A program made the position numbers and the translations under genes. 38,437 bases of DNA from Actinospica acidithermotolerans. Its GTDB lineage: Bacteria > Actinomycetota > Actinomycetes > Streptomycetales > Catenulisporaceae. The notes below the pieces were generated by a model, which was not told the DNA's origin, searched no databases, and saw only the letters and a program-made list of their open reading frames with translations. This document shows, in pieces, positions 1 to 12,569 of this stretch. The stretch's first letter is position 1. Each line of letters begins with the position of its first letter. The stretch lies in contig NZ_JAGSOH010000075.1 of the NCBI RefSeq assembly GCF_018139625.1, positions 1 to 38,437 on the forward strand, given 5' to 3'.

Positions 1-350
1 GTCCGGGCCAGGGCGGCCAGGGCGGCGGGGATGAGGGCGCGGGCGGCGGTCGGGTAGCTTCCGATGCGGACCGGGCCGGCCGGCCCGGTGCGTGCGCGGG
101 CCAGCTCGGCTTCGGCGCGGGCGAGGTGTTCGAGGACCGCTTCGGTGTGTTCGACGAGGTTCACCCCGGCGGGAGTGAGTGTGACGCGGCGTCCGGTGCG
201 GGTCAGTAGCGGCACACCGGCCTCGCGTTCGAGGGTGGACAGCTGCTGCGATACCGCCGAAGGGGTGAACGCCAGCGCCTTGGCGACAGCGGCGATCGTG
301 CCGCGGTGGGATAGTTCGCGAAGCAGCCGCAGGCGGTTCACATCGAGCAT
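1..350 (-). CDS. LysR-family transcriptional regulator (partial, N-terminal part)
   Basis: The minus strand from an ATG at 350 runs open to the window edge and gives about 116 residues. It begins MLDVNRLRLLRELSHRGTIA and continues with a textbook LysR winged helix-turn-helix: the segments TIAAVAKALAFTPSAVSQQ and LEREAGVPLLTR, then TPAG. The segment after this should be the linker helix and the start of the effector domain, with the rest lost at the edge. LysR proteins are usually about 300 aa dimeric DNA-binding regulators whose C-terminal domain senses a small ligand. It is divergent from the DapA-like gene with only 72 bp between the starts. That is the usual LysR arrangement, so the aldolase gene is its likely target. 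The ligand cannot be inferred. Confidence 0.9.
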   Translation of the reverse strand, partial: MLDVNRLRLLRELSHRGTIAAVAKALAFTPSAVSQQLSTLEREAGVPLLTRTGRRVTLTPAGVNLVEHTEAVLEHLARAEAELARARTGPAGPVRIGSYPTAARALIPAALAALAR

Positions 351-352
351 CA

Positions 353-372
353 GCTCAGCTTACGCTCAGCGT
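353..372. promoter_or_regulatory. candidate LysR operator between divergent genes
   Basis: The 72-bp divergent gap contains two direct GCTCAGC repeats at 353-359 and 364-370, 11 bp (one helical turn) apart. The second lies within ACGCTCAGCGT at 362-372, a 5+5 bp palindrome around one central base. Repeats in phase with the helix in a LysR divergent spacer are typical binding-site structure. Assignment to this LysR protein is inference. Confidence 0.4.
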
Positions 373-422
373 CGGAAATGCGAGATAGACCTGATGCTCG
401 ACGGGCCGTCATCCTCAGAGCC

Positions 423-1343
423 ATGAGGATGCACGGGATCTACGTACCGCTGGTCACGCCGTTCGAGCAGGACGGATCGGTCGCGGTGGCCGCGTTGGAG
501 GAACTGGCGCGCGCGGTGCTGGCGGAGGGAGCGGCGGGACTGGTCGCGCTCGGCACGACCGGGGAACCGGCGCTGCTGACCGCGCCGGAGAAGAGCGACG
601 TGCTGGCGGTGTGCGGCCGCGTGTGTCGGGAGCTTGGGGCGCCGCTGATCGTGGGGGCGGGAGGCGGCGCCACGGAGGCGAGTGCGCGCGAGCTTGAGGA
701 GTTGGCGGGGCTCGCGGACGCGGCGCTGGTTCCGACTCCGCCGTTCGTGCGACCGTCGCCGGAAGGCGTGTTGGCGCACTTCACTCATCTGGCCGAACGC
801 AGTCCGGTACCGCTGATCGTGTACGACGTCCCGTATCGCACGGCGTGCGCGCTCGATGCGCAGACCCTGCACGCCGTCGGCCGGCTGCCTGCCGTCATCG
901 GCGCGAAGCTCGCGCGCGGGGCGGTGGATCAGGACGCGGTCGAACTCCTCAACGACCCGCCGCCCGGATTCGCCGTGCTGGCCGGCGACGACGTGTTCCT
1001 CGGCCCCCTGCTCAGCTTGGGAGCCGCCGGCGGCATCCTGGCTTCCGCGCATCTGGCCATGGCACGTTTCGTCGAGTTCTTCCAAGCCTGGGAGAACGGG
1101 GATCTGGCGCGGGCGCGAGTGCTCGGCCGCGCTTTGACGCGCGTGTCTGGGGCCGCTTTCGCCGAGCCGAATCCGGCGGTGGTCAAGGCGGTGCTGGCCG
1201 CGCAGGGACGTATCCCGTCGGCATCGGTCCGGCTTCCGCTGATGGCCGCGAGCGAGGTCGCCCTCGGGAACGCGCTCGCCGCGTTGAGCGCGCCCGTTCT
1301 CGCGGCGGACGCGGCGCCGCCGTACGCCGCCGCGGCCAGCTGA
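423..1343 (+). CDS. dihydrodipicolinate synthase (DapA)/N-acetylneuraminate lyase family aldolase
   Basis: A 306-aa class I aldolase of the DHDPS/NAL superfamily, the usual length for a single TIM barrel. The N-terminus IYVPLVTPF, the pyruvate-binding loop GTTGEP (near residue 45), a tyrosine in LIVYDVPYRT (near residue 130) and the Schiff-base lysine in VIGAKLARG (near residue 160) are all visible. The family condenses pyruvate with, or cleaves it from, aldehydes: DHDPS makes a lysine precursor, and relatives degrade sugar acids or hydroxyproline. Spacing of the active-site residues is normal, but substrate cannot be read from sequence. Start choice: an upstream ATG at 378 is in frame but adds non-conserved residues; ATG 423 or 429 fits the family N-terminus. 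No strong Shine-Dalgarno is seen. It may be LysR-controlled and could supply an intermediate to the cluster downstream, but the 300-bp gap argues for separate transcription. Confidence 0.85.
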   Translation: MRMHGIYVPLVTPFEQDGSVAVAALEELARAVLAEGAAGLVALGTTGEPALLTAPEKSDVLAVCGRVCRELGAPLIVGAGGGATEASARELEELAGLADAALVPTPPFVRPSPEGVLAHFTHLAERSPVPLIVYDVPYRTACALDAQTLHAVGRLPAVIGAKLARGAVDQDAVELLNDPPPGFAVLAGDDVFLGPLLSLGAAGGILASAHLAMARFVEFFQAWENGDLARARVLGRALTRVSGAAFAEPNPAVVKAVLAAQGRIPSASVRLPLMAASEVALGNALAALSAPVLAADAAPPYAAAAS

Positions 1344-1412
1344 GGATCGTCCGAAACCCGCCTGGGACCGCGGGGCCGGCGTGGCGGTTTCCGGCCTGTG
1401 GGGCCGGAGGGG

Positions 1413-1447
1413 TTGACACGGCCATGTGGTCTAGTCCACTTTGGAGG
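1413..1447 (+). promoter_or_regulatory. promoter-like TTGACA with DasR/GntR-type operator (dre-like box)
   Basis: TTGACA at 1413-1418 is followed by GTGGTCTAGTCCAC at 1426-1439, an imperfect palindrome (12 of 14 positions symmetric). It closely resembles the DasR-responsive element consensus (core TGGTCTAGACCA) of streptomycetes. A sequence like CACTTT at 1437-1442 could be a weak -10 at 18-bp spacing, which would put the operator between -35 and -10. GGAGG follows at 1443-1447 with an ATG at 1456. DasR is a GntR-family repressor released by phosphorylated amino sugars such as GlcNAc-6-P. Operator identity comes from consensus recall; control of the downstream dioxygenase gene is inferred. 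Confidence 0.55.
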
Positions 1448-1483
1448 TGCGGCCGATGACGTATGAGGGCACGAATGCACTCG

Positions 1484-1505
1484 CGTCGACGGCCGGCCGT
1501 CGACG
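1484..1505. repeat. 22-bp perfect palindrome in the leader of the dioxygenase operon
   Basis: A perfect palindrome made of CGTCGAC, GGCCGGCC and GTCGACG, with its axis between 1494 and 1495. A second GGCCGGCC occurs at 1511-1518. It lies between the dre-like box and the dioxygenase start. It could be an operator or form a leader hairpin; no family is recognised. The rest of the roughly 300-bp gap (1344-1643) holds no convincing gene. Confidence 0.6.
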
Positions 1506-1643
1506 GTGCCGGCCGGCCGTTCCCGGCTGCCCGAACATTCATATCCTGATAGCAATTCCGGGGCCTCCCACCTGGGACGCCGTCGCGAGGCGTCACTCGG
1601 CCCCCTTTCCAATCCCGCGGCAAACCACCGCGAGAAAGGGATC

Positions 1644-2747
1644 ATGCCCGAAAACGCTCCGCACCTGTACCGCGCCTCCGGCGATCTGCCCTACTTCAGC
1701 AGGGATGGAGATACATACCTTGCCGAGTTCCCACTGCGTGATCTGCGCAAGAGGCTGCCGCTGCGCGTGCTGTCCGAAACCGACTTCGAGTCCTGGCAGG
1801 AGCGCGGCTACGCCGTGGTGCGCTCGGCGATCGCGCCCGAGGCGGCGGCCGCGCTGCACGAGTTCGCCTGGGAGTTCCAGGGCCTGGACCCGCACGATCC
1901 CGAGACCTGGTACCGGGATCGGCCCTACCGCAGCGACATCGACCGCGAGCTGCACATCTACGGCTTCGTCGAGGCCTACCACCACCAGCTGCTCTGGGAC
2001 AGCCGGCAGACGCAGCGGGTGTACGACGCGTTCGTCGACGTCTGGGACTGCGAGGAGCTGTGGGTCACCCTGGACCGGCTCAACCTGAACCCGCCGAACG
2101 TGCGCAACCGCGACCGCAAGCTGATCGCGCCCACCGAGACCGGATTCGACATCGAGCTGCACTGGGACGTCGACTCGACCCGCAGCGTGCCGCAGCAGCG
2201 TGTGCAGGGGATCATCGCGCTCACCGACACGGAGGCGGAGGTCGGCGGGTTCCAGTGCTCGCCCGAGCTCTTCCGCCGGTTCGACCGCTGGAAGGCGGAG
2301 CAGCCCGCGGACCGCGACCCGGTGCGTCCGGCGGTCTCCTGGGACGAGTTCCCGGTGGTGCGTCCGGAGCTGAAGGCGGGCGACCTGCTGATCTGGAACG
2401 GGCTGCTGGCCCACGGCGTCGCCGGCAACCGGTCGGAGAAGGGCGTGCGCGCGGTCCAGTACCTCTCGATGATGCCCGCGCTCGAGTCCCACCTCGAGCT
2501 CAAGCGCTCGCGCATCGAATCCTGGCGCACGCTGAGCACGCCAACGTGGAACGGCACGCTGCTCGGCGACGTGCACCGGCCCGAGTCCCTGCGCTACGGC
2601 CCGGCGAAGCTGACCGAGCTCGGCGAGAAGCTGCTCGGGTCACGCTCGTGGCACGGCGCCGCGGAACAGGGCACGGAGCTCGGCGCCGCAGAGCACGGCG
2701 CCGCGGAGCGGGGCACGGAGCTCGGCGGACGGGAGGGCGCGGCGTGA
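1644..2747 (+). CDS. phytanoyl-CoA dioxygenase (PhyH)-family Fe(II)/2-oxoglutarate dioxygenase
   Basis: A 367-aa non-haem iron oxygenase. The metal triad is visible as HWD (His173, Asp175) and a distal His257 in LLAHGVAGNRSE, followed about 11 residues later by an arginine (VRAVQY) expected to hold 2-oxoglutarate. GDLLIWNG before the distal His is typical of PhyH proteins. The family hydroxylates or otherwise oxidises small molecules, coupled to 2-oxoglutarate decarboxylation, and is frequent in natural-product clusters. ATG 1644 was chosen because an AAAGGG sequence ends 3 bases before it and MPENAPHLY looks like a true N-terminus; the frame stays open to 1506 but that part is unlike the family. 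The C-terminus carries two degenerate 14-residue repeats (AAEQGTELG-like), probably a DNA-level duplication. It is the first gene of a tight four-gene unit; its stop overlaps the next start. The substrate may be the basic amino acid or amine handled downstream. Confidence 0.85.
   Translation: MPENAPHLYRASGDLPYFSRDGDTYLAEFPLRDLRKRLPLRVLSETDFESWQERGYAVVRSAIAPEAAAALHEFAWEFQGLDPHDPETWYRDRPYRSDIDRELHIYGFVEAYHHQLLWDSRQTQRVYDAFVDVWDCEELWVTLDRLNLNPPNVRNRDRKLIAPTETGFDIELHWDVDSTRSVPQQRVQGIIALTDTEAEVGGFQCSPELFRRFDRWKAEQPADRDPVRPAVSWDEFPVVRPELKAGDLLIWNGLLAHGVAGNRSEKGVRAVQYLSMMPALESHLELKRSRIESWRTLSTPTWNGTLLGDVHRPESLRYGPAKLTELGEKLLGSRSWHGAAEQGTELGAAEHGAAERGTELGGREGAA
2652..2735. repeat. two tandem 42-bp copies at the 3' end of the dioxygenase gene
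   Basis: Copies at 2652-2693 and 2694-2735 share the segments CACGGCGCCGCGGA and GGGCACGGAGCTCGGCG at 42-bp period (14 codons), so the reading frame is kept. They encode the Ala/Glu/Gly-rich tail just before the stop at 2745. Confidence 0.85.
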
Positions 2748-4087
2748 GGCGGATCTGCCTGGCCCTGCCGACGAACCGGGCCTGTCCGGAGGCGATCGCA
2801 GGCCTCTACGACGAGGCCGCGTACGCCGCGCGCGAGTTCGGCGTGGAGGTCCACATGGTCGTCCTCGACTCCTCCGCTCCCCCGGTCCGGGCGCGGCACC
2901 GCGCCACCGTCGACGGCCTGCCGCCGACGCCGAACGTCGTCGTCAGCCTGCTCGACGAGGACGCGCAGCGGGCGTTCCTGACCGAGGCCATCGCGATATC
3001 AGGGCTCGCCGACGGTGACCGGCTGCTGGACCTCATGCTCCCACGGGGCGTTTCGTACGGCGCGGTCACGAACCGGATCTTCCTGATCGCGGCGGCTCTC
3101 GGCTGCGAGTCCGTGCACCGGCGGGACTCCGACAGCCGCTACCAGAGTCTCGGCGGCGAGCCGATGTTCCCGATCCACCACGAGGCCGGTGCACTCGGCC
3201 GGGTCGCGGGCGACCTCGCCGACTCCGTGAGCGAGAGCACGCTCGACCGCGATCAGGCTGGTAGGACGGTCGCGATCGCCGGGGCGTCGTTCGTCGGCGA
3301 GCTCTCCGTGGACATCAGCGAGATCGAACAGCTCGACCCCGAGGTCTACCGCGAGGTCGTGAGTCTGTGGGCGCCGTCGGACTGGACCGAGGAGCAGAAG
3401 CGCGAGCTGGTGGATGAGTCGTTCCGGGGCGCCGGGACCGAGCCGTTCGTCAGCGACCACGCCACGCTCGGCCTGGTCGACCCGATGCGGATCGACATGT
3501 GCAACATCGCGTTCCACCGCGGCGCGTATGAGCGCGTGCCGGTGCTTCCCGCGCTCGACACCATCGGCAGCGACTACTTCCTCATGCACGCCGTCCACTC
3601 AGCCGGGCTCCCGGGCGTGCTGCACAACCGGCACATCGTCAACTACTACACGCCGGAGCGCCGGACCGACGAGGGATTCGCCGCATACCAGCTGCGCTTC
3701 GCAAAGTTCTTTCTCTCCATGCTCTATCTCAACGACATCTATGAGCGCATGGACGAAGCCGGGTCGTCGCTCCTGGACGAGGGCGGCCGACTGCGGTCGG
3801 AGACGATCGCCGCGATGGCCCGTGACAGCACCCTGCTGGACACGTCCGAGAACCGGTGGCGGCTCGATGTGATCGGCCGCGGCTACCGCAAGCTCGGCGG
3901 TCGGTACGCGCGGTTTACGGAAACGTTGACGGAGCGCGGTGACGGGCTGCTCGAGCAGGCGCGCACCGATATCGAGGAGTTCGCGATGCTCGTCGAGGCC
4001 TGGCAGCCGCTGGTGGAGGCGAGCCGCAAGGCCGCCGGCGCGCTCCGCGTGCAGCACGGTGATCGGGGAAGCACGTCATGGAACTGA
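2744..4087 (+). CDS. DUF6271-like protein with glycosyltransferase (GT-A)-like motifs
   Basis: A 447-aa protein starting at GTG 2744, which overlaps the previous TGA in a GTGA junction, so translation is probably coupled. RRICLALPTNR followed by a beta-alpha pattern ending in VVLDSS looks like the nucleotide-binding start of a GT-A fold. HRRDSDSRY gives a DxD-type motif (Asp128, Asp130). NIAFHRGAYERVPVLPALD (near residues 255-275), then SDYFLMHAVHSAGLPGVLHN and a NYYTPERR tail, resembles the acceptor half of family-2-type glycosyltransferases. From memory it matches an uncharacterised Streptomyces family named DUF6271; I could not check this. No signal peptide or membrane segment is seen, so it should be cytosolic. 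Position between an oxygenase and a decarboxylase-acetyltransferase suggests a tailoring role, perhaps glycosyl or other nucleotide-sugar transfer. The enzyme activity is inference. Confidence 0.55.
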   Translation: MRRICLALPTNRACPEAIAGLYDEAAYAAREFGVEVHMVVLDSSAPPVRARHRATVDGLPPTPNVVVSLLDEDAQRAFLTEAIAISGLADGDRLLDLMLPRGVSYGAVTNRIFLIAAALGCESVHRRDSDSRYQSLGGEPMFPIHHEAGALGRVAGDLADSVSESTLDRDQAGRTVAIAGASFVGELSVDISEIEQLDPEVYREVVSLWAPSDWTEEQKRELVDESFRGAGTEPFVSDHATLGLVDPMRIDMCNIAFHRGAYERVPVLPALDTIGSDYFLMHAVHSAGLPGVLHNRHIVNYYTPERRTDEGFAAYQLRFAKFFLSMLYLNDIYERMDEAGSSLLDEGGRLRSETIAAMARDSTLLDTSENRWRLDVIGRGYRKLGGRYARFTETLTERGDGLLEQARTDIEEFAMLVEAWQPLVEASRKAAGALRVQHGDRGSTSWN

Positions 4088-5799
4088 GTCACGGATTGCG
4101 CGCGGCGCTGGCGGCGGCGGACTCGGATCGGCTCGTCTTCGATCTCAGCGGCATCGAGGACCGGCACGACGAGCTCGTGCGGCAACTGCCCGGCGTGGCC
4201 GTCCGCTTCGCCGTCAAAGCGTGCCCGGCCGACGAGGTGATCGCCGCTCTCGCCGCACGCGGCGCGGGCTGCGACGCGGCGAGCCCGAACGAGATCGCCC
4301 AGGCCCTGCGCGCGGGCGTGCCGGTCGAGCGCATCCACTACGGCAACACCAGCAAATCAGACGTCAACATCGCCGAGGCTTTCCGGCTCGGCGTGCGCGA
4401 CTTCGCCACGGACAGCCTCCAGGACATGGCCGCGATCGCCGAGCACGCACCCGGCTCACGGGTCTTCTGCCGGCTCGCGACATCCGGCGAGGGAGCGCTC
4501 TGGGGCCTGACCGGTAAGTTCGGCTGCTCGCCGTCCGACGCCATGGCCGTGATGGCGGCGGCTCGCGAGCTCGGCCTGACGCCCGCTGGCCTGTCCGTGC
4601 ACGTCGGCTCGCAGCAGATGCGCCCCGAGGCCTGGCGCACGGCGTTCGACGACCTGGCCCAGGTCATCGAAGGGCTCAAGGAACAGCGCATCCGCGTGAG
4701 CTACGTCAACCTCGGCGGCGGACTGCCCGCACTCGGCTATCTGGACCGGCGCGGCGTGCCGCTGGATCCGCCGCTCGACAAGATCTTCGCCACGATCCGC
4801 GACGGCATGCAGCACCTGTCCGGTCTTGCGTCGGGCACGCTCGACTTCATCGCCGAGCCCGGCCGCTACCTCGTTGCGGACCTCGGCGCGATCCGGGCGC
4901 ACGTGCAGCGTCTGTCGTCCCGCGAACTCGTCGACGGCGGCGAGCGGGAGAACTGGCTCTACCTCAGCGTCGGCAAGTACAACGGCCTCTACGAGATGGA
5001 CGAGTTGCAGTACCGCCTCGTCTTCCCGCGCCACGAGTCCGATGCTGCGGCGGCCGGAGAGCGGCTCCCGGCCGTGGTCGCCGGGCCGACCTGCGACAGC
5101 GACGACGCGTACGCGCACGAAGACAACCTCGTGCCGGTACCCGCGTCGCTCGAATCGGGCGAGCCGGTGTGGATCCTGTCCTGCGGGGCGTATGCGACGA
5201 GCTACACGACGCGGGGCTTCAACGGAATCGATCCGCTGCCCGTGCACTGGGTCCGCGGCCCGCGCGTGCGCCCGATCGCGGAGGCGGACTGGGACGCCAT
5301 CGCAGCACTCGAACACGACACGTACGCCGCATGCGGCCTGTCCGAGGACCGCGAGACGCTGGAGTCGCGTGCCCGGATCTCCCCGGCGACGTGCTTCGTC
5401 GTGGAGGTCGAGGGCCGGGTCGCCGGATACGTGCTGTCCCTGCCGTATCCACCGGGAAGCCACCCCGACCTGAGCGTTCGCGAACGCGGCATGGCCGAGC
5501 ACACTGTCGGCGATCCGGCGGCGGAGCACGCCAACCTGCACCTGCACGACCTGGTCGTCGCGGCGGACCAGCGCGGCCGGGGCTACGCGAAGCTGCTCCT
5601 GCGCCATCTCGAATCGGCGGCCTGTGCCGCTATGTACGAACGCATATCCCTCGTCTCGGTCGAGGGCAGCGAGAGCTTCTGGGCGGCGGCGGGCTTCCAC
5701 GCCGAACCCGCCGCACACCCGCCGGCCGGCTACGGCGATCGCGCGGTCTACATGTCGAAATCTGTGGAGGTCGATCGCCTTGCTCCGTATCCGAGATGA
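4078..5799 (+). CDS. fold-III ornithine/lysine-type PLP decarboxylase fused to a GNAT N-acetyltransferase
   Basis: A 573-aa two-domain enzyme. Residues 1 to about 390 match bacterial alanine-racemase-fold ornithine/lysine/diaminobutyrate decarboxylases. The PLP lysine is Lys47 in RFAVKACP; KFGCSPSDA and HVGSQQ follow, then the glycine loop in VNLGGGLPA, EPGRY for phosphate binding, LYLSVGKYNGL, the catalytic Cys339 in GPTCDSDD and GAYATSYTTRGFNG. Residues from about 394 form a GNAT domain with LHLHDLVV and the acetyl-CoA loop QRGRGYAKLLL near residue 500. Free decarboxylases of this type are about 380-400 aa, so the acetyltransferase is a real C-terminal addition. A basic amino acid would be decarboxylated to a diamine and could be N-acetylated by the same chain. 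ATG 4078 overlaps the preceding gene by 10 bp. Which amino acid is used, and whether the acetyl acceptor is the diamine or a downstream product, is unknown. Confidence 0.85.
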   Translation: MELSHGLRAALAAADSDRLVFDLSGIEDRHDELVRQLPGVAVRFAVKACPADEVIAALAARGAGCDAASPNEIAQALRAGVPVERIHYGNTSKSDVNIAEAFRLGVRDFATDSLQDMAAIAEHAPGSRVFCRLATSGEGALWGLTGKFGCSPSDAMAVMAAARELGLTPAGLSVHVGSQQMRPEAWRTAFDDLAQVIEGLKEQRIRVSYVNLGGGLPALGYLDRRGVPLDPPLDKIFATIRDGMQHLSGLASGTLDFIAEPGRYLVADLGAIRAHVQRLSSRELVDGGERENWLYLSVGKYNGLYEMDELQYRLVFPRHESDAAAAGERLPAVVAGPTCDSDDAYAHEDNLVPVPASLESGEPVWILSCGAYATSYTTRGFNGIDPLPVHWVRGPRVRPIAEADWDAIAALEHDTYAACGLSEDRETLESRARISPATCFVVEVEGRVAGYVLSLPYPPGSHPDLSVRERGMAEHTVGDPAAEHANLHLHDLVVAADQRGRGYAKLLLRHLESAACAAMYERISLVSVEGSESFWAAAGFHAEPAAHPPAGYGDRAVYMSKSVEVDRLAPYPR

Positions 5800-7027
5800 G
5801 TTCCGCCGCGGGCAGGTTGCGGTCGGTTCCCTGTTCCTGCTCCTCGGCTTCCAGTACGCCACCTGGGTCTCGCGGCTTCCCGCGATCAAGGCGCGGCTCG
5901 GCCTCTCGGACGCCGAGGTGGGCCTGCTGCTGATGGTGTGCGGCGTGGGCGCGGCCGCGTCGTTCCCGCTGGTGGCAGCGCTGATGAAATGGCTCGGCTC
6001 GCGCGGGCTGTGCGTGGCGTCGGCGGCGCTGCTCGGCCTGCTGCCGCTCGCGCTCGGCGTGGCGCCGGACTACGCGGTGGCGCTGATCATCGTGTGCTGC
6101 GACGGCGTCGGCGTGGCCTGCCTCGATGTGGCGATGAACGCACAGGGCACGGAGCTCGAAGAGCGCTTCGACCGCAAGGCCATGGGCAAGCTGCACGCCA
6201 CGTTCAGCGCCGGGTCGCTATGCGGCGCGCTGCTCGCCTCCGCCGTGAACGCGGCCACGTCCGACGTCAGCGTGCACTTCGGCGTCGCCGCGATTCTGAT
6301 CCTCGCGCTGCTCGCCTACGCCCAGCGCGACCTGCTCACGCCGCTCCCGCAGGCCGAGCCCATGCCGGAGGCTGCGGCGCCCGAGGTCGCCGAGAACGCG
6401 CCGTCGAGCCCGAAGAAGCGCGCCTTCGGCATTCCGCTGCCGACCCGGCTGACTCTCTGGCTGGGCCTGGCCATGGCCTTCGGGACGATCGTCGAGGGTG
6501 CGATGAACGACTGGTCGGCGCTGTACCTCAAGAACGTCGCCAAGGCCGCGGCCGGCCTCACTCCCATGGGCATCGCAGTGTTCTCCATAGCGATGGTGCT
6601 CGCTCGCGTGTTCTCCGACTCCTGGCGCAAGCGCTGGGGCGACGGCCCGGTAGTCGTGCTCGGCAGCGCCTTCGCAGGGCTCGGTCTCGCGACCGGAGTG
6701 CTGGTCGGCGGCGTGTTCCCGGCGCTGCTTGGGTTCGCGTGCGTGGGCCTCGGGATCGCCGCGGTCACGCCGTGCGTGTACGTCGCGGCGGCGGGAGCCG
6801 GCACCGACGCACTGGCGCTGGTGGCCGCGATGGGCACCGTCGGCCTGCTCGCCGGTCCTGGCCTGATCGGCCTGATCGCGAGCGGCGCCGGTCTCGCGTG
6901 GGGCATGGGAGCCGTGGCCCTGGCCGCAGCCGCCGTCGCAGCCTGCACCACGCGCATCGCCTGGACCCCGCGCCCCACGGCGGTGCCGACGTCACCCGTA
7001 CTCGCCGTCGTCGACATCGAGTCATAA
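5780..7027 (+). CDS. MFS transporter, probable exporter of the cluster product
   Basis: A 415-aa major facilitator protein with about 12 hydrophobic helices. It shows the cytoplasmic loop between helices 2 and 3 (MKWLGSRG), a CCDGVGVACLDVAMNAQ helix and a charged central loop (residues about 190-215). It resembles the YbjJ/fucose-permease-like branch. I chose the TTG start at 5780 because GGAGG at 5766-5770 lies 9 nt upstream and the first residues (LLRIRDEFRRGQ) fit a cytosolic N-terminus; the frame is open further upstream but inside the previous gene. It overlaps the decarboxylase-acetyltransferase gene by 20 bp and ends the four-gene unit, so export of, or self-resistance to, the product is the natural role. 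Import cannot be excluded. Confidence 0.85.
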   Translation: MLRIRDEFRRGQVAVGSLFLLLGFQYATWVSRLPAIKARLGLSDAEVGLLLMVCGVGAAASFPLVAALMKWLGSRGLCVASAALLGLLPLALGVAPDYAVALIIVCCDGVGVACLDVAMNAQGTELEERFDRKAMGKLHATFSAGSLCGALLASAVNAATSDVSVHFGVAAILILALLAYAQRDLLTPLPQAEPMPEAAAPEVAENAPSSPKKRAFGIPLPTRLTLWLGLAMAFGTIVEGAMNDWSALYLKNVAKAAAGLTPMGIAVFSIAMVLARVFSDSWRKRWGDGPVVVLGSAFAGLGLATGVLVGGVFPALLGFACVGLGIAAVTPCVYVAAAGAGTDALALVAAMGTVGLLAGPGLIGLIASGAGLAWGMGAVALAAAAVAACTTRIAWTPRPTAVPTSPVLAVVDIES

Positions 7028-7043
7028 CCGGCGGTGGGGCTTC

Positions 7044-7068
7044 GCGTACGACGGGCGATTTCGGGTAA
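7044..7068 (+). promoter_or_regulatory. candidate SigB-type promoter of the Vms1-like gene
   Basis: GCGT at 7044-7047, 15 bp, then GGGTAA at 7063-7068. The -10 matches the SigB/SigF-type GGGTA element; the -35 is a weak GNNT. The start codon is 36 nt beyond, with its own ribosome-binding site. Confidence 0.45.
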
Positions 7069-7104
7069 CCGCGTCGAACCCGACCACGCGAGAGGAGCCG
7101 AAGA

Positions 7105-8196
7105 ATGGACGCGAAGCCCTTCAAGCCGCTCTACGACGGGGACGGCCCGTTCACCTCCGTCTACCTGCCCACTCCCGGGAACGAGGCCGACGCCGCGCAC
7201 CGGATCGAGCTGACCTGGCGGGAGTTGCGCGAGGATCTCGCCGGGCAGGGCGCGCCCGAGGCGGACCTGCGGGCGATCGACGACGCGGTCGGACAGCCGC
7301 TCGCGTCGTCGTCGGCCGCGCAGCCGGCGGGACACGGCTCGCCGCCCGGACTGGCGGTCTTCGCCTCGCAGGGCACCGTCGTGCTCGATCGCGAGCTGTC
7401 CGCGCACCCCGTCGCGCCGCGTGCCGCCTTCGGGGACCTGCCGGACGCCGTCACGCTGCTGGCCCAGCTGCCGGATCTGGGCAACTACCTGGTCGTACAC
7501 ACCGACCGGGAGGGCGCCCAGATCGAGCTGCACGCGCGCGGCCGCCGCGAGCCCGAGCAGACCGAGCAGGTCAAGGGGCGTACGTACCCGGTCTCGAAGA
7601 ACAGCTCGGGCGACTGGCGGCAGGACCGCCGACAGCGGACGGTGCAGAACACATGGCGCGCCAACGCCCGCGACATCGCGTGGCGCGTCGGCGAGATCGC
7701 GGCCCGGCACGACGTGGACCTGGTCGCGGTCGACGGCGATGTACGTGCCCGCACATTGTTGCGCGACGAGCTCGGCGCCTCCTGGCAGGACCGCGTCGTG
7801 GACGCCGCCGACGGTGCCGAACGCATCGCCGCGGAGTTCGAGTGCGCCTGGCGAGCCGATGTGGTCGACCACTTCGCCCGAGGCCTGGCGAACGGCACTG
7901 CCGTCGACGGACTGGCCGCGACCGTCGACGCGCTGCGCACCGGCGAGGTCGCCACGCTTTTGCTGCGTCACGACGCGCCCGACGCCGGCGCCCCGGTGTG
8001 GTGGGGCTCCGAGCCGGGCCAACTGACGCTGCAACCGCGCGAACTGGAAGACCTGCGCGCGAACCTGATCAAGCGCGGCCGCGCGGCGGACGTGCTCATT
8101 CGTGCGCTGGTTCAGATGGACGGCGAACTTCTGCTGTGCTCCGGCGCCGAACCCGGCCCGAACGGCGTCGCCGGAGCGATCCTCCGCCGCGGCTGA
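7105..8196 (+). CDS. Vms1/Ankzf1-type (Rv2629-like) peptidyl-tRNA hydrolase family protein
   Basis: A 363-aa soluble protein with the opening FKPLYDGDGPFTSVYLPTP and the central segment DWRQDRRQRTVQNTW that I recognise from the actinobacterial Rv2629-like family. This family is related to eukaryotic release factor 1 and to Vms1, which releases peptide chains from tRNA on stalled ribosomes. Gln173 in the DWRQ segment sits where the family has its catalytic-loop glutamine. The later segment DVDLVAVDGDVRARTLL and the C-terminal DVLIRALVQMDGELLL match the two eRF1-like alpha/beta domains. GAGGAG at 7092-7097 supports ATG 7105. In mycobacteria relatives are stress- or dormancy-linked, which agrees with the SigB-like promoter. 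Molecular activity in bacteria is established only for some members. Confidence 0.75.
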   Translation: MDAKPFKPLYDGDGPFTSVYLPTPGNEADAAHRIELTWRELREDLAGQGAPEADLRAIDDAVGQPLASSSAAQPAGHGSPPGLAVFASQGTVVLDRELSAHPVAPRAAFGDLPDAVTLLAQLPDLGNYLVVHTDREGAQIELHARGRREPEQTEQVKGRTYPVSKNSSGDWRQDRRQRTVQNTWRANARDIAWRVGEIAARHDVDLVAVDGDVRARTLLRDELGASWQDRVVDAADGAERIAAEFECAWRADVVDHFARGLANGTAVDGLAATVDALRTGEVATLLLRHDAPDAGAPVWWGSEPGQLTLQPRELEDLRANLIKRGRAADVLIRALVQMDGELLLCSGAEPGPNGVAGAILRRG

Positions 8197-8244
8197 GCGG
8201 CCTGCGCATCCGGCCGCGCCGTCGGCGGATCAGCTGATCAGCGT

Positions 8245-8321
8245 CAGTACTCAGTGCCCAGTGCTCAGTGCTCAGTACTCAGTACTCAGTGCCCGGTGCC
8301 CGGTGCCCAGTGCTCAGTAGA
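8245..8321. repeat. 7-bp minisatellite (about 11 copies of CAGTRCY-type units)
   Basis: Eleven consecutive heptamers from 8245: CAGTACT, CAGTGCC, CAGTGCT and close variants (two CGGTGCC), ending with a partial CAGTAGA. A direct repeat GATCAGCGT flanks the array (8236-8244 and 8320-8328). The array contains the stop codon of the minus-strand gene at 8314. Units differ only at the variable positions, so the array has diverged by substitution after expansion. Confidence 0.95.
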
Positions 8322-8523
8322 TCAGCGTGCGCTCATAGACGTAGACAGCCATCGTCGGGTACTCGTCGTCGAGATCCGCAGTCGGGCGATACACGTGCCG
8401 CACCTGGCCGGCGTACCGGACGACGGGTACCGCCGACGTCACGTGCACGCGCTCGCCGTCGAACGGGCCGCCGCGGAGAACGGCGTTCGGTGCTCCAGCG
8501 TCGTGGGACTGCTCAGCATCCAT
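8314..8523 (-). CDS. small conserved protein, DUF5988-like
   Basis: A 69-aa protein from ATG 8523. The segment VLRGGPFDGERVHV followed by VYRPTADLDDEYPTMAVYVYERT resembles short actinobacterial proteins that I recall as DUF5988; the match is from memory. No signal peptide or membrane helix is evident. It follows the acyl-CoA dehydrogenase gene on the same strand after 55 bp, so it may end that transcript. Its stop codon lies inside the heptamer array, so the last residues (about LIY) may have been set by the repeat. Function is unknown. Confidence 0.6.
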   Translation of the reverse strand: MDAEQSHDAGAPNAVLRGGPFDGERVHVTSAVPVVRYAGQVRHVYRPTADLDDEYPTMAVYVYERTLIY

Positions 8524-8578
8524 GACCCGAGCTCAACACGCTGCGGCGGCCCGCGCAACCAGAGGCGACCTTCGCGCA

Positions 8579-9622
8579 TTATTTCGCCACGTGCTCCCAC
8601 TCAAGGTCCGCGAGGCTGCGGCCGAGCGTCGCGTAGTCGCGCTCGGCGTGGTGCTGGCGGAGGTACAGCGTCAGGTCGGCCACGAGGCGCGCGTGACGTT
8701 CGTCGTGGGCCAGCGGACTCGCGCCCAGCGCACGTCCTACGCGGTCGATCACCTCGGCACACGTGCGCTCGGTCGCGGCACGGACCTGCTTGGACCGCAC
8801 CGCCGCGCCGCCGGCGACGTCGTCCGGATCCGCGTCGATCTCGATAGCCGCGACATCCAGCAGGGCACCGACCGCGCGGAGGCTGGAGGTGACGGCGCCG
8901 AGGTGGGCGAGAGCGTGCGGTCCGACGTCGTAACTGCGGGCGGCGGTGTGCAGGGTACGCGCGACCGCCCTCGCACCGCCGTACCAGCATGCTGCAACAC
9001 CGATTCCGCCGTGCTGGAACCCTGGTCGCTCCAGGTAGGCGCCGGGAGCGCCGACGGGAGTCGCCGGCACGTCGTCGAAGTCGATGTCGAGGGTGTCGGA
9101 GGCGGCCATCGCGTCCGCGGGCCAGCTGTCCGGCAGCGGGAGCAGACCGGGGTCCGAGCACTCGACGGCGAACAGTCGACGCTCGGTGCCGGAACGCGCG
9201 GTGACCAGTGCCCGGGTGCACGTCCGCGCCCCGGAGCAGTACGCCTTGCGGCCCTTCAGCCTCCATCGGCTCTCGCTGGTGCGCATCGCGGCGAGCCCGC
9301 TGCCGGGCGGCTCGGCCGCCCAGACTCCCCAGAGCTCGGGGGGAGCGGCCACGGCGTTGGCGGCGCGCGGCACGTCATCGGTGTGCGGCCTGTCGGGGTA
9401 TGGCCGGACGCCGAGTTCGTGCAGGATCGCGAGCGCGTCGGCATGCCCCTCGGCGAGGCGCGCCAGGGTCAGGTCCTCCTCGGCCACGGCGGTCAGCCGG
9501 GCCCAGCGGGCGCGCGTGCGGCCGGCACCGGGCGGCGGCAGCTCCAGCGTGCCGCGCGACACGAGCGTCGCGAACCGATCGGCGATCGCGAGCGTGCGGG
9601 GCGGTGTATCCGTGTTCAGCAA
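8579..9622 (-). CDS. acyl-CoA dehydrogenase family protein
   Basis: A 347-aa flavoprotein of the acyl-CoA dehydrogenase superfamily, slightly shorter than the usual 380-400 aa. WGVWAAEPPGSGL corresponds to the FAD-binding middle-domain entry, WRLKGRKAYCSGA to the conserved (K)xxCSGA strand, and the C-terminal helical bundle holds RALGASPLAHDERHARLVADL, which is like the family RAxGAxPLxxD signature. The catalytic base cannot be placed with confidence. Start: TTG 9622, overlapping the upstream TGA (TTGCTGA), with GAGGAG about 9 nt before it, so translation is probably coupled to the phosphoesterase gene. Family members with neighbouring PIG-L deacetylase, methyltransferase and GT2 genes are common in actinobacteria from memory; here those partners lie 3 kb away. 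Confidence 0.8.
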   Translation of the reverse strand: MLNTDTPPRTLAIADRFATLVSRGTLELPPPGAGRTRARWARLTAVAEEDLTLARLAEGHADALAILHELGVRPYPDRPHTDDVPRAANAVAAPPELWGVWAAEPPGSGLAAMRTSESRWRLKGRKAYCSGARTCTRALVTARSGTERRLFAVECSDPGLLPLPDSWPADAMAASDTLDIDFDDVPATPVGAPGAYLERPGFQHGGIGVAACWYGGARAVARTLHTAARSYDVGPHALAHLGAVTSSLRAVGALLDVAAIEIDADPDDVAGGAAVRSKQVRAATERTCAEVIDRVGRALGASPLAHDERHARLVADLTLYLRQHHAERDYATLGRSLADLEWEHVAK

Positions 9623-10245
9623 TTGTCGCTCTCCTCATCAGCGATCTGCCGCAGCGTGCGACCGCTGCGCGCCGAGCGCAGCCGTCGGGGGTCGAGCGTC
9701 TTGTCGGCGCCGGCGTGCCGGTCGGATTTCTTCACCAGCAGCCACGCTTCACGGCCGTTGTCGTCCGCGCGCATCCGGGTGAGCGCGAACGCGCCGTGCA
9801 GCTTGTGGCCGTCCAGCCAGAACGACGCGTGGCCCTTCTCCAGCGCCTCGCTCAACGGCACTTCGCGGCCGGACTTCTTGCTGAGGTTGCGGTAGGTGCC
9901 CTCGTCCCAGACCATGACCGTTCCGCCGCCGTACTCGCCTTTCGGAATGACGCCCTCGAACGACCGGTAGTCCATCGGGTGATCCTCCGTCGGGCTGGCG
10001 AGCCGCTTCGTCTGCGGGTCGCTCGACGGCCCCTTCGGCACGGCCCAGGACTTGAGCACGCCGTCGGCCTCGAGCCGGAAGTCGAAGTGCATCGTGCTCG
10101 CGTCGTGCAGTTGGACGACGAACACGGGCTCCCCGCCGTCCGCGGCGCCATCGCGCCCCGGTGGCTCCGGCGACCGCTTCGGATCGCGGCGCCGCCGGTA
10201 TTCGGCGAGCCGATCGGCCTGGTCCTGATCCTTGTGCGTTGTCAC
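9616..10245 (-). CDS. stand-alone LigD-type DNA 3'-phosphoesterase domain protein
   Basis: About 209 aa, one complete PE domain: FVVQLHDASTMHFDFRLE (family form is HDAxxxHxDFRLE), then GVLKSWAVPKGPS, PMDYRSFEGVIPKGEYG, GTVMVWDEGTY and LHGAFALTRM. The two histidines and the aspartate of HDASTMHFD are the manganese-binding residues known from LigD, where the domain trims 3' phosphates and ribonucleotides during non-homologous end joining. There is no polymerase or ligase domain, so it is a free-standing nuclease or helper. GTG 10245 (VTTHKDQDQADRLAEY) was chosen because homologues start near the DRLAEYRRRRD segment; the frame is open to 10329, but that region overlaps the divergent promoter. 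Co-transcribed with the acyl-CoA dehydrogenase gene. Confidence 0.85.
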   Translation of the reverse strand: MTTHKDQDQADRLAEYRRRRDPKRSPEPPGRDGAADGGEPVFVVQLHDASTMHFDFRLEADGVLKSWAVPKGPSSDPQTKRLASPTEDHPMDYRSFEGVIPKGEYGGGTVMVWDEGTYRNLSKKSGREVPLSEALEKGHASFWLDGHKLHGAFALTRMRADDNGREAWLLVKKSDRHAGADKTLDPRRLRSARSGRTLRQIADEESDNC

Positions 10246-10314
10246 GCGTGCCAGGTGACCGGCCCGCGGGCGGCGAAACCCGTCCCGGTCCATTCGCCGC
10301 ATAGCCGGGAGCGC

Positions 10315-10339
10315 GCATAGTCGGGACATCGTCGGGTAG
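10315..10339 (+). promoter_or_regulatory. SigB-type promoter, predicted leaderless start
   Basis: GCAT at 10315-10318, 15 bp, then GGGTAG at 10334-10339. Only 10 nt separate the -10 from ATG 10350, and no ribosome-binding site fits between them. Transcription should therefore start at or within a few bases of the ATG. Confidence 0.6.
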
Positions 10340-10349
10340 CCGCGCGACC

Positions 10350-11873
10350 ATGCTCACCACCGCCGAAGCCTCCCAGTCTGAGAAGCTGGACCGCCGGCCG
10401 GCCCTGTTCGTGTGCCTGGTCGGCGGATTCATGACGCTGCTCGACGTCAGCATCGTCAACGTCGCGCTGCCCTCGATCCGCTCAGGGCTCAACGCGTCCG
10501 CCGACGATCTGCAGTGGGTGCTGTCGGGTTACGCCCTGGCGTTCGGGCTGGTGCTGGTCCCGGCGGGCCGCCTCGGCGACGCACACGGCCGACGGCTGAT
10601 GTTCATGGTGGGACTCGCCTCGTTCACGCTGACCAGCGCCCTGGCCGGCGTGGCGACGGGAGCGCTGTGGCTGATCGCGGCGCGGTTCGCGCAGGGCCTG
10701 GCGAGCGGAACGCTCAGCCCGCAGGTCGCGGGCCTGATCCAGCAGCTGTACCGGGGAGCCGCGCGGGGACGTGCGTTCGGCCTGCTCGGAGCCGCCATCG
10801 GGATCTCGACCGCGGTCGGCCCGCTGCTCGGCGGGCTGCTGATCGCGGCGGGGGGCACGGCGGACGGCTGGCGCTGGGTCTTCTACGTGAACGTACCGAT
10901 CGGGCTGATCGCGCTGCCGGCCGCGTGGCGGCTGCTGCCCAGCCAGAGCGAGCGCGACGAGGACGAGGTGCGCGACGCGCCGAAGGGGCTCGACGCGGTG
11001 GGTATCGCGCTGCTCGGCAGCGCGGTCGTGCTGCTGCTGGTGCCGCTCGTCGAGGCGCAGCAGTGGTCCGGTTGGTTCAAGTGGCTGCTGATTCCTGTCG
11101 CGTTCCTGCTGTTCGCGGCCTTCACGGCCTGGGAGCGCCGGCAGCAGGAGCCGGCTGTGAACCTCAGGCTGTTCAGCCGCCGCTCCTTCTCCCTGGGCAC
11201 CGCGCTCGCCCTCGCCTACTTCGCCGGCTTCACGGCGCTGTTCTTCATCTTCACGCTGTACCTGCAGAACGGATTGGGCCGCAGCGCCCTGATCGCCGGC
11301 CTCGCGATCACACCGTTCGCCGTCGGATCGGCCGGCGCGGCGGCCGTGGGCGGCCGGCTCGTCGAGCGCGCCGGACGCCCCCTCGTCGCGATAGGACTGG
11401 TAGCCGTGGTCGTGGGCCTCGGCGGAACGCTCATCGCGGCGCGCGCGGTCGCCGGTCCCGACGTCGGCTGGGCCACGGCGGCGCCGCTGCTGCTCGCCGG
11501 CATCGGCAGCGGGCTGGTGATCGCGCCCAACCAGACCATCACCCTCTCCGAGGTCCCCGTCCGCGAGGCCAGCACCGCCGCGGGCGTGCTGCAGACATCG
11601 CAGCGCATCGGCTCCGCCATCGGCGTCGCGGCCGTCGGCGTCGTCTTCTTCGCCGCCCTCCCCGGAGGCGGGGCCTCCGCCGGGTCGAGCGGGTCAGGAA
11701 GCCGCCAGCCCGGCACGGGCGCCGCGCAGACCTGGTCGACGGCCTTCGAACGCGGCCTGACCGTCATCATCGTGCTGGTCGGCGTCGCGCTGCTGATCGC
11801 GCTCGCCGACGTGATCGCGGAACGCCGCGAGCACCCGCACCGATCCGAGAGCGATCGGCCGAACGGGCGGTGA
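10350..11873 (+). CDS. DHA2-family (EmrB/QacA-type) 14-TM MFS drug exporter
   Basis: A 507-aa proton-coupled exporter of the cytoplasmic membrane. FMTLLDVSIVNVALPSI is the DHA2 motif in helix 1; GRLGDAHGRR is the loop 2-3 motif; GPLLGGLL in helix 5 is the antiporter motif C region. About 14 hydrophobic helices are seen, with a Gly/Ser-rich loop near residues 450-465 before the last helix and a short charged tail. The family exports dyes, antiseptics and antibiotics. ATG 10350 is supported by the family N-terminus and by the -10 element directly upstream. It is divergent from the phosphoesterase gene and may be stress-induced. Confidence 0.9.
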   Translation: MLTTAEASQSEKLDRRPALFVCLVGGFMTLLDVSIVNVALPSIRSGLNASADDLQWVLSGYALAFGLVLVPAGRLGDAHGRRLMFMVGLASFTLTSALAGVATGALWLIAARFAQGLASGTLSPQVAGLIQQLYRGAARGRAFGLLGAAIGISTAVGPLLGGLLIAAGGTADGWRWVFYVNVPIGLIALPAAWRLLPSQSERDEDEVRDAPKGLDAVGIALLGSAVVLLLVPLVEAQQWSGWFKWLLIPVAFLLFAAFTAWERRQQEPAVNLRLFSRRSFSLGTALALAYFAGFTALFFIFTLYLQNGLGRSALIAGLAITPFAVGSAGAAAVGGRLVERAGRPLVAIGLVAVVVGLGGTLIAARAVAGPDVGWATAAPLLLAGIGSGLVIAPNQTITLSEVPVREASTAAGVLQTSQRIGSAIGVAAVGVVFFAALPGGGASAGSSGSGSRQPGTGAAQTWSTAFERGLTVIIVLVGVALLIALADVIAERREHPHRSESDRPNGR

Positions 11874-11875
11874 TC

Positions 11876-11900
11876 GTTTGACCGGGTGCTTAGCGGGTAG
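11876..11900 (+). promoter_or_regulatory. SigB-type promoter of udgX, predicted leaderless
   Basis: GTTT at 11876-11879, a 15-bp spacer and GGGTAG at 11895-11900: the best match to the SigB consensus in the window. ATG 11910 begins 9 nt after the -10, so the mRNA should lack a leader. It starts only 2 bases past the exporter stop, giving udgX its own promoter. Confidence 0.7.
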
Positions 11901-11909
11901 CCGGGCACG

Positions 11910-12569
11910 ATGTCGAACGAAGCTTCCCGGGCACGTCATCCCGGCGCCGAGCGCTTCATCCCGGACACCGACGACCTGGCCGAGATGGCCGAGGCCGCGC
12001 GGGAGTGCCGCGGATGCGACCTCTATCGCGGCGCCACGCAGACCGTGTTCGGCAATGGCGCGGAACGTGCGCGGGTGCTGATGCTCGGCGAGCAGCCGGG
12101 CGACCAGGAGGATCGGCAGGGCGAACCGTTCGTCGGGCCGGCGGGGGCGATTCTGCGGCGCGCGCTCGTCGACGCGGGCGTGGCGGAGCGGAGCGTCTAT
12201 CTGACGAACGCCGTCAAGCACTTCCGCTGGCGCCGCGACGAATCCCGCGGAAAGCGGCGCATTCACCAGCGCCCGGACGCCGGGCAGGTGGCGGCGTGCC
12301 GGCCGTGGTGGCTGGCCGAGGTGCGGGCGGTGCGGCCGGAGATCCTGGTCGCGCTCGGGGCGACGGCCGGGCAAGCGCTGTTCGGTTCGTCGTTCCGCGT
12401 CGGTTCGACGCGGGGAGCGATGCTCGAGTGGCAGGAGCCGGGGGGCCGGACGATCCCGGTCCTGGCGACGATCCATCCCTCGGCCGTGCTGAGGGCGACG
12501 GATCGGGAGGTCGCGTACGCCGGGTTCGTCGGTGACATGCGGAAGCTCGCCAAGCTGCTGAAGCAATGA
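11910..12569 (+). CDS. udgX: UdgX-family uracil-DNA binding/glycosylase protein
   Basis: A 219-aa protein of the family-4-like uracil-DNA glycosylase superfamily. [16 protein letters not shown] carries a CxxC iron-sulfur ligand pair. [20 protein letters not shown] is motif A. The insertion KRRIHQ (Lys115-Gln120) is diagnostic of UdgX: its histidine (His119) becomes covalently joined to the abasic sugar after uracil is removed, leaving a DNA-protein crosslink. The final motif is TIHPSAVLR. The remaining cluster cysteines are in ACRPWW and further upstream, as in the family. A SigB-type promoter with no leader suggests induction in stress, next to other DNA-repair functions. The stop lies in a 15-bp tandem repeat. 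Confidence 0.9.

Follow-up and report, generated by a model that had tools for sequence, protein, structure and literature searches.

A fold-III decarboxylase fused to a GNAT acetyltransferase in a PhyH-DUF6271 operon of Actinospica acidithermotolerans and its relatives

We observed that a gene of Actinospica acidithermotolerans encodes a fold-III, PLP-dependent decarboxylase (ODC) and a GNAT N-acetyltransferase in one chain. We propose that the two halves form a two-step module, decarboxylation followed by acylation, within a small specialised-metabolite operon to which a PhyH-family oxygenase, a DUF6271 protein and an MFS transporter contribute, and we give this reading a probability of roughly 0.55. 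Judging by the fusion, ODC and GNAT are likely to catalyse consecutive steps of a pathway with DUF6271 as its core gene, and a single bifunctional protein offers a simple handle for finding what the whole cassette uses as substrate and, through this, what it makes. The widespread cassette is the more interesting object than the fusion itself. All coordinates refer to the window, the whole stretch of 38,437 nucleotides of contig NZ_JAGSOH010000075.1 that was analysed (Table 1).

Results

One open frame encodes a decarboxylase and a GNAT domain

The sequence-only reading had placed both enzymes in a single polypeptide, and this was confirmed by one open frame and by Pfam domains above their cut-offs. 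PF02784 (Orn_Arg_deC_N) covers residues 25-267 (E 3e-42), PF00278 residues 289-370 (E 4e-5; 24.2 bits against a cut-off of 23) and PF00583 (Acetyltransf_1) residues 405-540 (E 1e-11; 45.1 bits against a cut-off of 20.7). The closest solved sequence is the lysine/ornithine decarboxylase 2plj, with E 2e-36 over residues 5-382. No ATG for a separate GNAT start lies at the junction, where GTG codons are present. Because a second locus (L033) carries the same fusion, the junction is no sequencing slip private to the genome of the window. As a domain arrangement, the fusion of these known enzymes is new, if modestly so.

A single-chain prediction of the fusion (mean pLDDT 88.8, pTM 0.85) matches human ODC (7s3f) with Z 41.9 and 2.6 Å over 376 residues. 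Its low-confidence blocks, 301-310, 341-350 and 371-380, hold or adjoin D308, C339-D340 and Y372. The VIA and Foldseek lists for this model are taken up by one domain and show entries of the decarboxylase family. ODC functions as a dimer.

Table 1 Features of the fusion gene and its operon in the window
Feature	Position	Strand	Remarks
PhyH-family Fe(II)/2-oxoglutarate oxygenase	1644..2747	+	first operon gene; PF05721 E 2e-12; start chosen by homology
DUF6271 protein, predicted GT-A/GT75-like nucleotide-sugar enzyme	2744..4087	+	GTG start; PF19787 E 5e-211; invariant HRRDSD
Decarboxylase-GNAT fusion	4078-5799	+	single uninterrupted frame, 573 codons + stop, 573 aa
Decarboxylase domain	4078..5250	+	fusion residues ~1-391; Lys47, Cys339
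Linker/junction	5251..5289	+	fusion residues 392-404; from Pfam domain edges and junction codons
GNAT domain	5290..5697	+	fusion residues 405-540; CoA loop RGRGYA 499-504; PF00583 above cut-off
MFS transporter, probable exporter	5780..7027	+	PF07690 E 3e-20; TTG start inferred; overlaps fusion end; conserved fifth cassette member

Both halves retain the residues of their families

Fifteen PLP-binding and catalytic positions of human ODC were placed on the fusion by phmmer alignment. K69, D88, E94, R154, H197 and S200 of the human enzyme correspond to K47, D66, E72, R132, H175 and S178; G235-237, E274 and R277 to G213-215, E260 and R263; and C360, D361, Y389 and F397 to C339, D340, Y372 and F381. 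All 15 positions carry the same letter in 59/59 family rows, window included. In human ODC we take them to comprise the Schiff-base lysine, the residues that hold the PLP phosphate and ring, the proton-donor cysteine, and Asp361, Tyr389 and Phe397. The retention of fold-III decarboxylase residues, Lys47 and Cys339 among them, thus stood as had been claimed, with the equivalent of Asp332 unplaced. This specificity residue, which binds the distal amine, falls on Q311 in the phmmer alignment, its flanks 331 and 333 being without an identical partner, and the loop that carries it in human ODC differs here (EMDEL). D308, three residues before Q311, is invariant and matches the FDD of the Vibrio enzyme by eye, a manual choice.

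The decarboxylase half shares the fold, the PLP and catalytic residues, the GPTCD motif and the C-terminal FNG with human ODC, the Vibrio vulnificus enzyme (2plj) and the Selenomonas LDC (5gjm), at an identity of only ~24-30% over structural alignments; unlike these three proteins, it is followed by a C-terminal GNAT. Two other identities were rejected, namely diaminopimelate decarboxylase (TIGR01048 lysA; 127 bits against a curated cut-off of 297.9) and D-Orn/Lys decarboxylase, for which the score is far under the curated cut-off.

In the GNAT half, the acetyl-CoA loop Q/RxxGxG/A reads R499-x-x-G502-x-A504 (RGRGYA, 499-504). We checked the alignment for loss of the acetyl-CoA-binding residues and saw none: R499 is conserved in 57/58 rows, G502 in 56/58, and A or G stands at position 504 in 54/58. 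The RxxGxA loop and the PF00583 domain above cut-off liken this half to GNAT N-acetyltransferases at large, from which it differs by an invariant set of its own, N-x-H-x-H-D, Y552-G553 and Y558, kept in 58/58 GNAT rows. A phmmer search of the domain against solved structures gave no relative at E 0.1. The best solved match of the GNAT profile is 2ae6 (E 4e-6); solved polyamine and agmatine acetyltransferases match it weakly (E 5e-4 to 7e-3), below or among other GNATs.

The operon includes a DUF6271 protein with a predicted GT75-like fold

The operon order is PhyH - DUF6271 - ODC-GNAT - MFS. The PhyH stop overlaps the DUF6271 start (GTGA), and the fused gene overlaps both of its neighbours. 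PhyH is 66-76% identical in relatives. A DHDPS-like gene at 420-1343 was considered as a pathway member and rejected, as tblastn at 1e-6 matched it in none of the relative loci. Rfam gave no match over positions 1-12000 of the window.

Sequence searches found no relatives of DUF6271 in the PDB, the profile search yielding only matches at E 0.01 and above that we took for chance, and no sequence relation to MtdL was detectable. The DUF6271 model (mean pLDDT 91.7) is closest in fold to the GT75 NDP-pyranose mutase MtdL (Foldseek E 3e-8; Z 23.9, 3.5 Å, 315 residues), followed by rice UAM2 (Z 21.3) and then by mannosyl-3-phosphoglycerate synthases (Z ~17). The motif HRRDSD (D128-S129-D130) and H294 are invariant in 34 rows; N295 and R296 are nearly invariant in these rows and invariant in the 30 closer ones. 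According to excerpts of the MtdL report, that enzyme relies on a DDD motif and on the residues His287 and Arg289, and the arginine glycosylated in plant relatives is matched by its Arg159 (PMC9937993). DUF6271 is like the GT75 enzymes MtdL and rice UAM2 in its predicted fold and in a DxD-type motif, D128-S-D130, and unlike them in that no sequence similarity was found and in carrying DSD in place of the GT75 DDD motif. The residues H294-N-R296 resemble the His287/Arg289 pair named in those excerpts, a residue match of our own reading. We infer that DUF6271 is a nucleotide-sugar enzyme, either a mutase or a transferase. In several genomes DUF6271 shows an in-frame TGA. One such case (L096) was read, and recoding was rejected there, as this TGA is the stop of the gene and lies just within the profile match.

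The cassette is common in streptomycetes, mostly with separate ODC and GNAT genes

DUF6271 is present in 4/296 genomes of a phylum sample and in 123/391 genomes of an order sample, the window's own genome being counted in both. It was found in 0/13 genomes of the same family (G001-G013), three of which are <91% complete, and it is present in L033, a named Streptosporangiaceae record. Lateral gain by the lineage of the window is likely. Nearly all DUF6271 genomes of the order sample belong to a single genus, which we took to be Streptomyces since the ODC of one of these genomes (G365, locus L160) is identical to that of a Streptomyces violascens record (L054).

Genome contigs were scanned with peptides from both fusion halves, which gave 30 loci; 29 were counted, and L062, a 75-residue match, was omitted here and from the trees. 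Among the 29, ODC and GNAT are split in 19, fused in 4, and set apart in another 4 with ODC before PhyH and away from GNAT; one locus has PhyH and ODC only (L047) and one is cut by a contig end (L058). DUF6271 occurs in 28/29 of these loci, PhyH in 28/29 and MFS in 27/29; the fused locus L044 is without a PhyH match. The order sample contributed 120 further loci around DUF6271 hits in 119 genomes (G555 twice), so that DUF6271 is present by construction. They comprise 66 split loci, one of which (L155, on a 3.9-kb contig) is without MFS, 10 fused loci, and 39 loci where a condensation-domain protein occurs and both ODC and GNAT are absent. The remainder are an ODC fragment with an intact GNAT (L214), a GNAT without ODC nearby (L135), two loci with PhyH and DUF6271 only (L212, L213) and one distant DUF6271 alone (L216). 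Over both sets, ODC and GNAT are split in 85, fused in 14 and apart in 4 of 149 relative loci, with 46 loci in none of these states; at least two loci are common to both sets, as seen from the identical ODC rows L055/L107 and L054/L160. Streptomycetes carry the five-function cassette widely, in most cases with ODC and GNAT encoded by two adjacent genes, and the fusion is the exception.

Repeated changes between split and fused ODC and GNAT

A careful tree of the ODC domain (59 rows, 10 fused) requires five changes between the split and fused states, at least three of them forced by starred, well-supported branches. A second tree, built quickly from 102 rows of which 15 are fused, again requires five changes, at least three on starred branches, and its fused groups are the window with L033, L039 with L042, a nine-row clade, L044 and L179. 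L044 sits on a long branch and its placement is unsure. One change in the 59-row tree depends on L058, whose contig ends just past the ODC match and which was scored unfused; one in the 102-row tree depends on L179, where the ODC tail diverges directly after GFNG in a frameshift-like manner and the fusion is doubtful. L058 and L047 were left out of the 102-row tree. Rows with an ODC of <=300 residues (L014, 59-row tree) and identical rows (one in the 59-row tree, two in the 102-row tree) were removed. Some of the changes could be losses instead of gains. The join in L039 and L042 looks like the loss of an ODC stop, because both keep a Met at the position of the GNAT start in L043, a close split relative.

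The two halves occur together and are exchanged together

An ODC match was found in 77 order-sample loci (76 full, 1 fragment), and GNAT accompanies it in 77/77. The condensation-domain-protein loci have ODC or GNAT in 0/39 cases within the stretch fetched, and searches of two whole genomes of this type (G016 and G035) gave no close ODC, the best matches being <=34% identical. In the DUF6271 tree one branch with support 99 (FastTree) separates the ODC/GNAT type from the condensation type. PhyH and DUF6271 remain while ODC and GNAT are exchanged as a block for the condensation-domain protein. On sequence comparison, the two halves most likely act on one molecule, and not obligatorily as one chain. 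The suggestion that the fusion couples diamine production directly to acetylation was borne out in part. Co-occurrence, joint replacement and repeated fusion support the coupling, indirectly; the notion that it is direct, through one chain, fared less well, since most relatives use two proteins and the genes are non-adjacent in 4 loci, so that the fusion itself is not essential.

The sequence-only reading had also allowed that the GNAT acts on another cluster intermediate. In this case its target might be what PhyH or DUF6271 produces, or an amino-sugar, and the GNAT would be fused to ODC only as a gene neighbour. Several loci are consistent with this. In G019 (L214) the GNAT is intact although only a remnant of ODC lies next to it, the four loci set apart have ODC before PhyH and away from GNAT, and in G513 (L135) the GNAT adjoins DUF6271 and is separated from the ODC by 21 kb of one contig. 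L047 has PhyH and ODC without GNAT or DUF6271 within 17 kb, and a simple stop-codon loss can fuse neighbouring genes. However, it is this pair that has fused repeatedly, and ODC and GNAT are replaced jointly while PhyH and DUF6271 stay, and we regard a GNAT that acts on a different intermediate as somewhat unlikely.

Discussion

In the two-step module that we favour, the ODC half would form a PLP aldimine on Lys47 and decarboxylate a basic amino acid with a side-chain amine, which may be L-lysine or L-ornithine, either as such or after hydroxylation or glycosylation, with Cys339 as the putative proton donor. The GNAT half would then move an acetyl or other acyl group from CoA onto the amine formed. 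PhyH would add a hydroxyl, DUF6271 would draw on a nucleotide-sugar to supply or attach a sugar, and export of the product would fall to the MFS protein. Joining the halves would fix their stoichiometry and proximity and would be dispensable. Substrates, the order of steps, product, export and any channelling are given here as we infer them. The probable role of the cassette is to make a small modified amine and to export it. The presence of PhyH and DUF6271 in the same operon suggests an amine more elaborate than a plain N-acetyl diamine, and the predicted GT75-like fold of DUF6271 suggests that it may be glycosylated, hydroxylated and N-acetylated, which would be the simplest reading of an oxygenase, a sugar-enzyme-like protein, a decarboxylase, an acetyltransferase and a transporter side by side.

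The retained ODC-type residues and the weak profile matches to polyamine and agmatine acetyltransferases would also agree with a module for polyamine turnover whose product is plain N-acetylputrescine or N-acetylcadaverine, with PhyH and DUF6271 as bystanders, but this is improbable given DUF6271 and PhyH in 28 each, and MFS in 27, of the 29 fusion-query loci. GNAT proteins are known to confer resistance by acetylating amine antibiotics, and a transporter is present, yet self-protection, in which the GNAT would inactivate a toxic amine product inside the producer, is more improbable still: the earlier idea of protection from a reactive amine found no specific support, nothing points to toxicity of the product, and joint loss or gain with ODC fits biosynthesis equally well or better.

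Pathways to siderophores of the desferrioxamine and bisucaberin type likewise decarboxylate a diamino acid and then N-acylate it, as we propose here. They use a decarboxylase of another fold, together with an N-hydroxylase and an NIS synthetase, none of which belongs to the conserved cassette. An ODC fused to a second enzyme is also found in the Fusobacterium ODC-arginase; its ODC is of another fold than the decarboxylase described here, and, as excerpts of the report on it have it, its second domain was judged unlikely to be active (PMC8503589), whereas the GNAT of our fusion keeps its signature residues. In the literature searched, with subscription journals mostly outside it, no title or abstract opening among those listed describes an ODC-GNAT fusion or the PhyH-DUF6271-ODC-GNAT-MFS cassette, and DUF6271 did not appear by name.

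Tentatively, the cassette may represent an undescribed and very widespread actinomycete metabolite family, that of hydroxylated and glycosylated, possibly furanosyl, amines made via PhyH and the GT75-like DUF6271, which one lineage would finish with ODC and GNAT, repeatedly fused, and the other with a stand-alone condensation-domain protein. In G513, the surroundings of the DUF6271-GNAT pair and of the ODC hold AMP-binding enzymes, carrier proteins (one on each side), a transketolase, a glyoxalase-family protein, an FMN-dehydrogenase protein and a PhyH-family protein. In Streptomyces clavuligerus, PhyH-DUF6271 stands with a condensation-domain protein, MFS and transketolase halves. Both surroundings are typical of specialised metabolism.

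Predicted fold of DUF6271

Structure prediction points to a GT75 NDP-sugar mutase fold, as in MtdL and UAM2, for the DUF6271 protein, and this predicted likeness hints at what a so far uncharacterized domain might do. A search for sequence similarity between DUF6271 and these GT75 mutases detected none. A distant DUF6271 relative (20.6% identity) is encoded on a plasmid of the honeybee lactobacillus Apilactobacillus kunkeei (L066), where its neighbors are transketolase halves, an aminotransferase and ATP-grasp-type (ddl) genes. PMC9648514 describes an A. kunkeei plasmid of similar size for a putative polyketide, which may or may not be the plasmid considered here.

Surroundings of the cassette and a second cassette type

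Immediately downstream of the MFS gene, the window encodes a relative of Rv2629-type ribosome hibernation factors, which scored 197.6 bits against that profile, below the cut-off of 320. Across the 237 residues of a further window protein, a Pfam search matched nothing besides PF13298, the DNA-ligase-D 3'-phosphoesterase domain.

One conserved gene frequently adjoins the cassette (14/31 sequences compared, including L035 and L039). By eye, it resembles a GH3/NagZ-type glucosaminidase; some of these loci also carry apparent transporter genes and a nagB-like gene.

In G513, DUF6271-GNAT lies ~20 kb from a PhyH-family protein-transketolase-ODC stretch, and AMP-binding, carrier-protein, glyoxalase-family and FMN-dehydrogenase genes are also present. 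Both stretches look to be inside one larger natural-product cluster.

A second cassette type, seen in 39 of the 120 order-sample loci (e.g. L117-L123) and in L063, lacks ODC, GNAT and the first MFS; in their place it has a stand-alone condensation-domain protein and, in 37 of the 39, a different MFS. In the condensation-domain protein of L063, SHAVTDG occupies the position of the expected HHxxxDG.

Coordinates of the features described
Feature	Sequence	Position	Strand
DUF6271	window	2744-4087	
Rv2629-type relative	window	7105-8196	
DNA-ligase-D 3'-phosphoesterase domain protein	window	9616-10329	-
Cassette-adjoining gene	L035	3592-5100	
Second cassette type	L063	12001-16787	
DUF6271 relative	L066	12019-13254	
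Both G513 stretches (L222/L223)	G513, contig C34	332000-369900
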